Positions 34,703 to 37,847 of a stretch of DNA of 64,000 nt are shown here, piece by piece. Position numbers and translations under genes: made by a program. The stretch covers positions 1-64,000 of the forward strand of contig QFXE01000008.1 in NCBI GenBank assembly GCA_003349915.1. Direction: 5' to 3'. The notes under the pieces were generated by a model that saw only the letters and a list, made by a program, of their open reading frames with translations, searched no databases and was not told where the DNA came from. This DNA is from an endosymbiont of Escarpia spicata (GTDB lineage: Bacteria; Pseudomonadota; Gammaproteobacteria; Chromatiales; Chromatiaceae). Each line of letters opens with the position of its first letter. Position 1 is the first letter of the stretch.

Positions 34703-34813
34703 TTTACCGATCCTCTAATCTTGAGACTTCACAGGATGCGAATTATTCGATAGTTCTTGGAAGATAAATACTGTTATTGTTTATGGAATAGTCGAATTCA
34801 GATGGTAATCGAT

Positions 34814-36229
34814 ATGGCACGCAAACATGCGCTCATTGTTGATGACTCCAAAACTGCCAGAGAGGTGCTTGCGAAACGCCTGGTTGGCTACGATATCGAG
34901 GTCGATACCGTAGAATCAGCCGGTGATGCCATAGACTATCTCAGCGAGCATATTCCGGACGCGGTTTTCCTGGATTATGAGATGCCTGGTATGGACGGCT
35001 TTCAGGCCTTGAAAGCGATCAAGTCGAATCCCAATACGGCAGCGATCCCTGTGATGATGTATACCTCCAGAGCAGGAGGGTTGGCGATTGGCCAAGCTCG
35101 GGCACTAGGTGCGCTGGGTGTTCTGCCGAAGGAGTTGGAGACGCAGGATCTCGACGAAGTCATTCGAGCGCTACATCTCAACCCTGACCAGGATTCACTG
35201 GTCGCGCGTTATACACATGCAATAGTGGGAGCTGGGAATGGCGGTGATGAAGTCAGGGCCGATGCAGAATATATCGATCGATTTCAGGGCCTGGTTGAAC
35301 AGGCAGAACAATCGCTAAAACAGGGGAGCAGCCGCAAACAGATGGCGTTGCTGTTGGCCCAGCAGCATAAGCTGCTCTCAAAGAATATGGATGCGAATGC
35401 GGCAAGATCCTTGCGCTCCATAGAGCAGCAATTTTCCGAGGTGAATGAACGGCTGACTGATACCCAGCGATCGATTGCAGCAAGTCTTCCCAAAAAGAGG
35501 GGTGTCCCAAAGGGGTTGCTGTCGGTGTTCGCTGCCTGCCTGGCGATCTTTGCAACGGTATGGTTCTGGAATAACAACATCGACAGGACACAGAGGGGTG
35601 TGGCGGAAAATCTGCTGTTGCTGGAGTCGGGGCGTAACAATCTGACAGAAAAAGTCACCCAAGTGGATGCGCTGATACAGCAGCAGCAAACAGCTATTGA
35701 GACGCTGAGAAGTAGCTTGGAAGATATAGGTAAACAGGTTGGAACAGAAGCGGTACCGTTGCTTGAGTGGGCGGTTAACCGTGATTCGCGTTTCCCCTAT
35801 GGCGAAGGGCCGTTTAGTGATAAGCGGGTCATCTGGTTGTCCCAGATCATCGATCATCTGGCTGCAGCAGGTTTTACCGGAACCGTAAGGTTGACGGCCA
35901 ACTATGGTAATTATTGTCTGAGCAGAAACGATCAGAGCCGGTTTGTGCCTGCTTCCGCAGAGACGGCATTTGCAGATTGTGTATTGGCCCGTGATCTGGC
36001 AGAAATCGAGGGGAAAAAGCAGGCGGTTCCAACGATCGGTTTTTCCAACTATCTGAATAATGCCCCTTCATTGATCAATGGAGATATATTCGTCGAGTTG
36101 GAGGCGTCGGGGTTTGACGTGGCAAAGGTACCCTACCCGGAGCCCTATGCAGTGCAGGATGTCGGTGTCTGGAACCAGGTTGCCAGCCAGAACCAACGTA
36201 TCGATATCAAGCTATTTGTGGCTGAGTGA
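34814..36229 (+). CDS. Membrane-tethered response regulator with periplasmic domain
   Basis: The 471-residue protein has an N-terminal receiver domain (1-125; Asp10/Asp11, phosphoacceptor Asp54 in VFLDYEMPGMDG, Lys106 in GVLPKEL), a helical linker with coiled coil (150-225), one membrane segment (about 234-252, LLSVFAACLAIFATVWFW), another coiled coil (260-305) and a C-terminal domain of about 150 residues with GFTGTVRLTANYGNYCLS. By the basic residues KKRG before the segment, the receiver is cytoplasmic and the C-terminal domain periplasmic, an inverted plan for signal transduction. I do not recognise the periplasmic domain. The start MARKHALIVDDS parallels the gene at 58108; ATG codons 4 codons or more upstream are possible. 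Confidence 0.8.
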   Translation: MARKHALIVDDSKTAREVLAKRLVGYDIEVDTVESAGDAIDYLSEHIPDAVFLDYEMPGMDGFQALKAIKSNPNTAAIPVMMYTSRAGGLAIGQARALGALGVLPKELETQDLDEVIRALHLNPDQDSLVARYTHAIVGAGNGGDEVRADAEYIDRFQGLVEQAEQSLKQGSSRKQMALLLAQQHKLLSKNMDANAARSLRSIEQQFSEVNERLTDTQRSIAASLPKKRGVPKGLLSVFAACLAIFATVWFWNNNIDRTQRGVAENLLLLESGRNNLTEKVTQVDALIQQQQTAIETLRSSLEDIGKQVGTEAVPLLEWAVNRDSRFPYGEGPFSDKRVIWLSQIIDHLAAAGFTGTVRLTANYGNYCLSRNDQSRFVPASAETAFADCVLARDLAEIEGKKQAVPTIGFSNYLNNAPSLINGDIFVELEASGFDVAKVPYPEPYAVQDVGVWNQVASQNQRIDIKLFVAE

Positions 36230-36243
36230 TGCCTGAGGAAATT

Positions 36244-36273
36244 GCCGGTTCCGCTACGCTTGAACCGGCCTAC
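36244..36273. repeat. Short palindrome, GGATCAAGCG family
   Basis: GCCGGTTCCGCTACGCTTGA and onward to ACCGGCCTAC form one hairpin, the same as the right half of the composite copy at 21944. Its CTA is the TAG stop of the minus-strand gene ending at 36270. Confidence 0.8.
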
Positions 36274-36734
36274 TGCGGCATCTTCGGTGGCATGGCTGGC
36301 GGTATCTCATATTTGTAGACGCCCAGGTCAGTGAAGTGGCCACGCATGTCGATAACAATTTTTGTTTGGTGACGCTTGCCTTCACGGGCACGGACTGCAT
36401 CGAAGAAGCTCTTGCGCATCCGGGTGCCAGCGCGGGTGTCCGGGTCGATACTGAAGACGATGTGTATGGGTTCGCCGGGACGATTCAGGGGGTGGGCGAG
36501 GGCGTGAACACGGTCATTGTGAACCGTGTAGACGATAACCTCCATCTTTTCGTGCAGATAGGGTAGGCGGATGGAGAAGCCGGACCCCAGCGCTATGTAA
36601 GCGATGATAAGAAACACACAGGCACCCAGCAGAAATGCGGCGAAGCTGCGTTTGGTTGCTATGACAGCCAAGCTTCCCCAGATGGCGAAAACAGCCAGCA
36701 GCAGATATTTCAGCGTTAGCGGGTCGGTGAACAT
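36270..36734 (-). CDS. Two-TM protein of the motor operon
   Basis: The 154-residue product has two membrane segments (about 9-24 and 30-50, FAAFLLGACVFLIIAYIALG) and a soluble C-terminal part of about 100 residues rich in beta pattern (EKMEVIVYTVHNDRVHALAH, HIVFSIDPDTRAGTRM, TKIVIDMRGHFTDLGVYKYE) ending in a proline-rich tail. No family is recognised. Its ATG follows the stop of the ExbD-like gene with no gap, so the two are coupled. It is likely an accessory subunit of the ExbB/ExbD-like complex. The stop codon lies in a dispersed repeat, which may have replaced the native 3' end. Confidence 0.65.
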   Translation of the reverse strand: MFTDPLTLKYLLLAVFAIWGSLAVIATKRSFAAFLLGACVFLIIAYIALGSGFSIRLPYLHEKMEVIVYTVHNDRVHALAHPLNRPGEPIHIVFSIDPDTRAGTRMRKSFFDAVRAREGKRHQTKIVIDMRGHFTDLGVYKYEIPPAMPPKMPQ

Positions 36735-37352
36735 CTATTTGCTCTTTGTCTGGCTCTGCTTCAGTGTGCTGTGAAAAATATCAAATGGTTCAAATGATCT
36801 GCTATCCGGGACCAGTTTTTTATCTTCCATGGTGAAGGTTACGATGCCCTTCTCCTGTCCAGGATAGTCCAGCGTCATCACATCCTCGTATATCGGGATC
36901 ATGAGTTTTCCCTGACGGTGCCGGATAGAGATGCGCACATCCACCGGGGTTTCTCCCTGGCCGTTGTCTGTGTAGTAGACGATGGAGAAGCGATAGCGGC
37001 CATCGGGGATGCCGCGGGAGAAGGAAAACTCGTAGTTCAGGCCGGAATAGTCCACGTCGCGGCCGAGATCATCCCGTACCAGATTGAATATCTTGCCGAA
37101 GGGCATGGAGTAACCGACCTTCTCTTCGCCTGGTGCATCGGTCCACAGATCGATATCGGCAGGGCTGTCCGAGGTCCAGCTGATCTCGGCGATCATATCC
37201 CCTGCGGCCTTCTCTATCTCGGTCTGAGCGCTCTCCTGCTTGATCTCGATGAGAGGAATCAATAACACCACCAGGGTAAGCATCAGGAGCGCCAGCAGCA
37301 TCAGCAGGTCACGAAAAACGATGGACATGCTGTCTTCGCGCTGCCGGGTCAT
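36735..37352 (-). CDS. ExbD/MotB-like subunit with periplasmic beta-sandwich
   Basis: The 205-residue protein has a short basic N-terminus and one membrane helix starting FRDLLMLLALLMLTLVVLLI. The Asp at its start (Asp17) matches the proton-carrying Asp of ExbD, TolR and MotB helices. The rest is periplasmic: DIDLWTDAPGEEKVGYSM, RDVDYSGLNYEFSFSRGIPD and GRYRFSIVYY read like the DUF2135/YfaP beta-sandwich, not the usual ExbD or OmpA-like domain. It starts 3 bases after the ExbB-like gene and abuts the third gene. I infer a proton-driven stator or motor with an unusual periplasmic output. Confidence 0.7.
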   Translation of the reverse strand: MTRQREDSMSIVFRDLLMLLALLMLTLVVLLIPLIEIKQESAQTEIEKAAGDMIAEISWTSDSPADIDLWTDAPGEEKVGYSMPFGKIFNLVRDDLGRDVDYSGLNYEFSFSRGIPDGRYRFSIVYYTDNGQGETPVDVRISIRHRQGKLMIPIYEDVMTLDYPGQEKGIVTFTMEDKKLVPDSRSFEPFDIFHSTLKQSQTKSK

Positions 37353-37355
37353 GGC

Positions 37356-37847
37356 TTAGTCCCTCTCTGAGGTTACCGCATGCGCGTTTGATCCGGCACT
37401 TCTTTCGCCATACAGCATCTTGCGAACCTTGTTCATTGCTTCCATCGTCATGGCCGCGGACAAACCGATCATGGTGGTATCGATAGCGAATGAGACGGTT
37501 TTCAGGAATCGCCCGATCTCGGCCGACAGGGTGGCCGGGTCATGCAGGGCATCAACTTCAAGTCCGGCCAGCGCCATGGAAAACCCAAGAACTGTACCCA
37601 ACATGCCAAGCCCGGTCGTCAGCCAGGACCAGAAGTGGTCATCGGCATCGCGCCCGGCGAAGGCGAAGGATTCAACCAGCACGACGATGGTGAGAATGAT
37701 ACAAAAGAACCATAGGGTCAGGAGATTGCCGAGAATTCGATCCAGGTAGCCTTGGGTATAAAGCGTTACGAGCAGCGCCACGAGCGAAAACAGAAGGGCC
37801 AGTTCGATGAGTTTTGCCCAGGGAGCGGGGCTCTTTGGAGTGACCAT
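37356..37847 (-). CDS. ExbB/TolQ/MotA-like proton-channel subunit
   Basis: The 163-residue protein has four hydrophobic segments (about 13-30, 37-60, 73-95, 118-140). The third, TGLGMLGTVLGFSMALAG, matches TolQ/ExbB TM2 (GLFGTVWGI), and the fourth, FAIDTTMIGLSAAMTMEAMN, matches TM3 (AT-IGL-AAI) with the Thr residues of the ion path. The cytoplasmic part is much shorter than in TolQ. It is first in a tight three-gene operon with an ExbD-like protein and a two-TM protein. It does not resemble flagellar MotA over its length. The operon lies between the apr and qmo loci. Confidence 0.72.
   Translation of the reverse strand: MVTPKSPAPWAKLIELALLFSLVALLVTLYTQGYLDRILGNLLTLWFFCIILTIVVLVESFAFAGRDADDHFWSWLTTGLGMLGTVLGFSMALAGLEVDALHDPATLSAEIGRFLKTVSFAIDTTMIGLSAAMTMEAMNKVRKMLYGERSAGSNAHAVTSERD

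Follow-up and report, generated by a model that had tools for sequence, protein, structure and literature searches.

Three short genes on the reverse strand of a 64,000-nucleotide stretch of DNA from an endosymbiont of Escarpia spicata (the window) raise the question of whether they encode a known proton-driven envelope machine or one that has escaped description, and what such a machine would drive. A function is known for few ion-driven 5:2 motors, and according to a survey of 2025 a diversity of trans-envelope systems powered by such motors still awaits discovery (PMC12204202).

A conserved three-gene locus

The original prediction placed three abutting genes at 36270-37847 (−), and all three open reading frames are present there. 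The first, B (37356-37847, −), encodes a 163-residue MotA/ExbB-like channel subunit; the second, D (36735-37352, −), a 205-residue subunit in the ExbD position, with a transmembrane (TM) helix and a DUF2135-like sandwich; and the third, T (36270-36734, −), a 154-residue subunit with two TM helices and a probable periplasmic domain. A gap of 3 nt separates B from D, while D and T abut directly. The proposed survey of genomic context refutes a chance cluster of reading frames, since the trio recurs in this order in about 40 of 45 bacterial loci and also in phages, with varied flanks. The trio was also predicted to lie between the apr and qmo loci. Its flanks do read as apr and qmo from their translations, but the setting is incidental, as the trio occurs in many contexts. 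A link to apr/qmo sulfur metabolism was rejected because the flanks differ in other genera, including Thiodiazotropha.

B belongs to the MotA/TolQ/ExbB superfamily

The B protein of the window scores 16.7 bits against PF01618 (MotA_ExbB), under the cut-off of 22.9. A match to this family was obtained for all six members of the first B alignment (best E 7.6e-11), and a profile of 30 B sequences searched against the PDB found solved motors at E values from 3e-7 to 2e-3. These included 8gqy (Motility protein A, which we take to be PomA; E 2.7e-6), MotA 8ucs (2.5e-4), TolQ 9kpz and 8odt (1.3e-3) and ZorA 8qyh (1.9e-3). A further match, at E 3e-7, was 8vvn, an entry named in the Zorya structure paper (PMC11890865). 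Because the profile reaches ZorA, PomA/MotA and TolQ structures alike, B is, as judged from sequence, a member of the superfamily that is about equally remote from all three and near no single branch.

Four TM helices are probable in the window protein, with about 10 residues separating TM2 and TM3. Together with the family and profile matches this agrees with the TolQ/ExbB-type channel with short loops that had been proposed. The proposal that the motor is ‘minimal’ holds for the short-B subfamily of the window, where no fourth gene is found at the locus, but not for the family as a whole: typical bacterial relatives of B have about 245 residues against 163 in the window, and many operons carry a fourth gene.

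Residue conservation was assessed over 82 B and 87 D sequences from bacteria and phages. Two threonines of B are candidates for a polar ring: Thr85 in TM3 (LGMLGT; 37593-37595, −), which is Thr in 62 of 82 homologues and otherwise Asn (14), Lys (4) or Ala (2), and Thr125 in TM4 (FAIDTT; 37473-37475, −), which is Thr in 80 of 82.

D carries an ion-path aspartate and a DUF2135-like sandwich

An AlphaFold2 model of D built with 25 sequences (mean pLDDT 81.6) comprises a long helix, residues 3-50, followed by strands between residues 53 and 176 that form an 8-strand beta-sandwich (36825-37196, −). The single TM helix contains Asp15 (SIVFRDLL; codon GAC, 37308-37310, −), the candidate ion-path residue, which is Asp in 79 of 87 homologues and invariant across 12 divergent D proteins of bacterial and phage origin. 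The ExbD-type helix with its expected Asp was thus correctly anticipated, and the Asp/Thr ion path is kept in homologues, with the exception of two clades that lack the canonical Asp.

In these two clades (L082/L086/L089/L092 and L124-L127; 8 of the 87 D proteins) the position is occupied by Ala or Val, and an Asp lies four residues upstream instead, in an FDP motif. It is possible that the ion-binding residue has shifted there. In the first of these clades the T gene is duplicated as well.

Eleven residues of the sandwich are identical in all 87 D proteins: W59, D66, D68, R93, D94, D95, G97, E108, R113, G118 and E167. Several fall in two motifs, DIDLW (residues 66-70; 37143-37157, −), in which W70 is kept in 77 of 87, and RDDLG (residues 93-97; 37062-37076, −). 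So many invariant charged residues suggest that the acidic/Arg site is probably a metal or ligand site rather than mere scaffold.

The sandwich had been likened to DUF2135, and the resemblance is real, if sub-threshold. Matches to PF09906 (DUF2135) at E ≤ 1 were seen in 11 of 45 family members (best 8.8e-4); none of the 45 scored above the curated cut-off, and neither the window D nor its near relatives gave a match. Alignment of the D family profile with E. coli YfaP by hhalign gave a probability of 80.6 and an E value of 1.3e-5 over 78 columns, and the two share the pattern W...DxDL.V..P.G...GxYxVxxxYY. YfaP differs in that it is not known to be fused to a motor helix, and D differs in falling below the Pfam cut-off. 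Homology between the D sandwich and DUF2135 is therefore likely but not proven. No paper on DUF2135 was found in the literature searched, which covered few subscription journals.

No other family accounted for D. ExbD (PF02472) was matched neither by the 45 members nor at the window locus, and there was no OmpA or TonB match above cut-off. A Foldseek search of the PDB found no solved structure at E < 0.001, DUF4425 beta-sandwiches being weak matches at E 0.014, and D alone against PDB sequences returned only a thioesterase (E 0.96). The D profile weakly matched a phage virion structural protein (11pb chain C, residues 274-335; E 0.11). Two very large proteins of about 900-1100 residues, at L104 (3083-6439) and L105 (1-2697), have only the D-type sandwich in common with the family, which indicates that this domain also exists outside the motor.

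T is a third membrane subunit

T was predicted to be a two-TM protein of no known family, and this is what we find: it has two TMs and matched no family in Pfam or the PDB. The loop joining the helices is short and positively charged, and by the positive-inside rule the remaining 100 or so residues would be periplasmic. In a 31-sequence alignment the C-terminal tail, which contains Pro and Lys, carries a P-x-K motif with the Pro at ≥90% and the Lys invariant. The AlphaFold2 model is too poor for interpretation (pLDDT 61.8). With profile A2, T was found adjoining D in nearly all loci.

The trio stands apart from known 5:2 motors

The proposed profile searches placed B in the superfamily and left D and T outside the Tol, Exb, Mot and Zor families, and no clear orthology to any of these systems emerged. 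The 359-kb contig that carries the trio contains no other PF01618 match and no ExbD, OmpA/Pal or TonB_C match, in keeping with the predicted absence of TonB and Pal nearby. The rest of the genome contains seven further above-cut-off matches to PF01618, five to ExbD, two to TonB_C and ten to OmpA, none of them on the trio contig, and Mot-like pairs lie elsewhere in the genome. One ExbB-type gene pair, with ExbD and TonB_C matches adjoining it (G000:C12:171519-173353), is likewise separate from the trio.

With MotA/MotB and PomA/PomB the trio shares the four-TM layout of B, an Asp near the N-terminus of the D helix and the PomA profile match. It differs in having no torque-generating cytoplasmic domain, no OmpA-type domain and no flagellar genes, and we rejected a flagellar stator since D carries a sandwich and the B loop has only about 10 residues. 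ExbB/ExbD and TolQ/TolR have the same channel core motifs and TM Asp, whereas the trio lacks an ExbD Pfam match and has neither TonB nor Pal, and its B has four probable TMs rather than three; the absence of PF02472 in D and of OmpA/Pal or TonB_C on the contig speaks against membership of ExbD/TolR and Tol-Pal/Ton. A condensed cytoplasmic domain like that of B is seen in the generic ion transporters of a survey of MotAB relatives, which describes the non-flagellar members as highly diverse and in which von Willebrand and FHA domains go unmentioned (mBio, PMC12505986).

Zorya is the system closest to B by profile (8vvn and 8qyh). ZorA/ZorB likewise belong to the 5:2 ion-driven superfamily, with a TM Asp in the B-type partner and a possible phage link (PMC11890865). 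The long cytoplasmic tail of ZorA and the peptidoglycan-binding domain of ZorB (PMC11890865) have no counterpart in the trio, which has a tailless B, a sandwich on D, a third membrane subunit and no Zorya effector genes. D and T match none of the PADLOC models, and the best NCBIfam/PADLOC matches of the 163-residue B are ZorA models, far below cut-off, so that Zorya membership was also rejected.

The nearest published idea is that of vWA force transducers of TolQ-like motors (PMC12204202), which share with the trio a vWA protein in the motor operon and, joined to a TM helix with an Asp, a periplasmic domain of non-canonical type. In those transducers the vWA domain itself sits on the transducer/pore helix and ExbD may be missing, whereas in the trio the pore helix carries the DUF2135-like sandwich and the VWA protein is separate, FHA-ended and optional. 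By the features tested here, the trio falls outside Tol, Ton, Mot and Zorya. The literature searched, in which few subscription journals were covered, yielded no description of a B-D-T trio, in line with the prediction of an undescribed system, and one may exist elsewhere. The trio forms a new family with clear limits, set apart by its output domain, by a third subunit and by genetic partners of its own.

The trio is inherited jointly

Of 370 gammaproteobacterial genomes, 42 gave a match to the D profile, two of them through large proteins of other architecture that have only the domain in common, and in nearly every gammaproteobacterial locus B is directly upstream and T directly downstream of D. 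A second survey matched 32 of 398 Proteobacteria, a count that includes several domain-only matches in large proteins and many genomes from one alphaproteobacterial genus; in that genus the trio is near-core (27 of 31 genomes). All six genomes of the window genus in the collection have the trio, as do only a minority of genera within the family. The D protein has counterparts of 95-99% identity in the symbiont genomes of Lamellibrachia and Escarpia, and of about 75% in Candidatus Thiodiazotropha. Over 75 loci the distance matrices of B, D and T correlate pairwise with r = 0.85-0.87, against a permutation maximum of about 0.1 (2000 permutations). As shared ancestry contributes to it, this correlation shows joint inheritance and not contact.

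Partner genes vary and no single one is universal across trio loci. In many Gammaproteobacteria the operon continues with a gene for a protein that has a signal peptide, a VWA domain and a single TM and ends in an FHA domain (12 loci, in some of which the VWA part is lacking). Genes for a YkuD L,D-transpeptidase and a DUF302 lipoprotein often come before it; these operons adjoin tilS, accA and dnaE, named from sequence. In another bacterial group the partner is a DUF3108-like lipoprotein (10 loci). An FHA partner was not found at the window locus or at phage loci. Four genomes of about 1 Mb keep the trio between fumarase-like and aconitase-like genes, also named from sequence. The tilS/accA/dnaE synteny speaks for a physiological role in bacteria, as do the near-core presence in one genus and the persistence of the trio in 1-Mb genomes.

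At least three phage groups carry the trio

By tblastn, D was found in 27 Rhizobium/Sinorhizobium phage records, some of them duplicate accessions, and in all five that were read closely it is flanked by B and T, which bear only a number or the label hypothetical protein. In IMG/VR, the phage 16-3 query retrieved 21 contigs and a T4-like query, from aquatic-type contigs, 27, with few in common; a virus scan with a gammaproteobacterial D matched no virus. No PHROG family was found for the phage B and D proteins tested or for two tested phage T proteins.

Many phage loci add a protease with an apparent signal peptide. All 17 close relatives of the 16-3 type (L136-L152) have a secreted, trypsin-like protease ahead of the trio. 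The T4-like contigs (L155, L165-L190) have the order B-D-T-protease in all of the approximately 21 that extend past T, and this four-gene operon lies close to gp32-like genes; its protease has Trypsin_2 and PDZ domains (HtrA-like) after a lipoprotein-like or TM start. A protease lies about 3 kb downstream of the trio in RHph_N3_19, and Pootjesviridae and RHph_I1_18 have the trio with no protease nearby. In 47 bacterial loci we found no secreted protease of the phage type.

With midpoint rooting the D tree divides into two deep subfamilies (support 100/99), one holding the window clade, Azospirillum and the 16-3-like phages, and the other the rest of the phages together with most bacteria. The phages fall into at least three separate groups on it, as read from the tree itself rather than from a count of label changes (L108 is phage 16-3; L129 and L130 are probable prophages). 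The classical temperate phage 16-3 and Azospirillum brasilense Sp7 are tractable members of the family.

A proposed motor with exchangeable effectors

We propose, with a probability of roughly 70%, that B, D and T make up an inner-membrane motor driven by the proton motive force and belonging to the ExbB/ExbD-TolQ/TolR-MotA/MotB-ZorA/ZorB superfamily. The earlier suggestion of a proton-driven machine with the sandwich as its output is well supported as to motor class by the conserved Asp and Thr, the AlphaFold2 fold and the order of the trio. The core would presumably be B5:D2, with T as a dedicated third subunit, and by homology five B subunits would surround the pair of D helices. Within the B pentamer, protons may move by way of the D-helix Asp and past a polar ring near Thr85 and Thr125, and this passage would turn or shift the D dimer relative to B. 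The moving output would then be the DUF2135-like sandwich, in place of a peptidoglycan-binding OmpA domain or an ExbD/TolR domain, acting on a periplasmic or outer-membrane partner, while T would probably sit at the motor rim or under the sandwich.

The varied partners all act in, or report on, the periplasm, and for this reason we favour, tentatively, a role in envelope surveillance or periplasmic proteostasis with exchangeable effectors. These would be VWA-TM-FHA proteins or DUF3108-like lipoproteins in bacteria and HtrA/trypsin-like proteases in phages; in the window type the effector would be encoded elsewhere by the host or absent. A more specific and more speculative version is that the 5:2 motor and its sandwich recognise or unfold periplasmic or outer-membrane targets for the exchangeable effector, and that phages captured the trio at least three times, two groups coupling it to an HtrA-type protease for control of the envelope or exclusion of rivals. 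If true, this would define a novel type of proton-driven envelope machine and, in phages, a virally encoded ion-driven motor, and the coupling of a proton-driven motor to a secreted protease would be an unexpected viral means of acting on the host envelope.

The main rival is defence against phages. Like Zorya, the motor would sense the envelope disturbance caused by an incoming phage and trigger an effector, which in phages and prophages would be the secreted protease, blocking competitors. Carriage by at least three phage groups, the protease adjoining the trio in the 17 close 16-3-type and all of the T4-like contigs that extend past T, and the ZorA models as best, though sub-threshold, matches of B are consistent with such superinfection exclusion. 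So is the position of the trio in 16-3, apparently just after the late region, which ends at a chitinase-like gene (PMC10460002), and hence in accessory DNA. The bacterial copies tell against it: they lie in conserved housekeeping synteny with no defence-island setting seen, are near-core in one genus, persist in 1-Mb genomes and, in the 47 loci examined, showed no protease of the phage type, and D and T have no PADLOC model. We consider exclusion as the general role unlikely, and both roles could be true in different hosts.

Surveillance by a working motor is also preferred to a gated proton channel that senses signals and produces no force, in which binding to the VWA domain or sandwich would gate the channel and FHA would relay to phosphothreonine signalling. 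The VWA-TM-FHA or TM-FHA partner of 12 loci could carry information across the membrane, and with such short cytoplasmic loops there is scant space for a cytoplasmic track. Such a sensor is nonetheless improbable, as the FHA partner was not found at the window and phage loci and the well-characterised members of the 5:2 superfamily perform mechanical work. Still less credible is a phage-type lysis module, in which motor and protease would help breach the outer membrane late in infection: the trio does lie just after an endolysin-like gene and small membrane proteins in 16-3-like phages, but among replication and middle genes (gp32-like, gyrase, late sigma factor, sliding clamp) in other phage groups, and it is common in bacteria with no phage context. 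Least of all do we expect a divergent orthologue of a known Tol, Exb, Mot or Zor system, given that B shares their superfamily while D lacks an ExbD, OmpA or TonB domain above cut-off, canonical loci stand separately elsewhere in the genome and T is found only in the trio family.

A further gene at the window locus (34757-36229, +) converges on T. Its product joins a response-regulator receiver domain to a TM helix, beyond which lie a coiled region weakly matching DUF3450 (E 0.0023, below cut-off) and, at the C-terminus, a domain without an assigned family. It is unusual to see a receiver domain on a protein that is anchored in the membrane and probably periplasmic.
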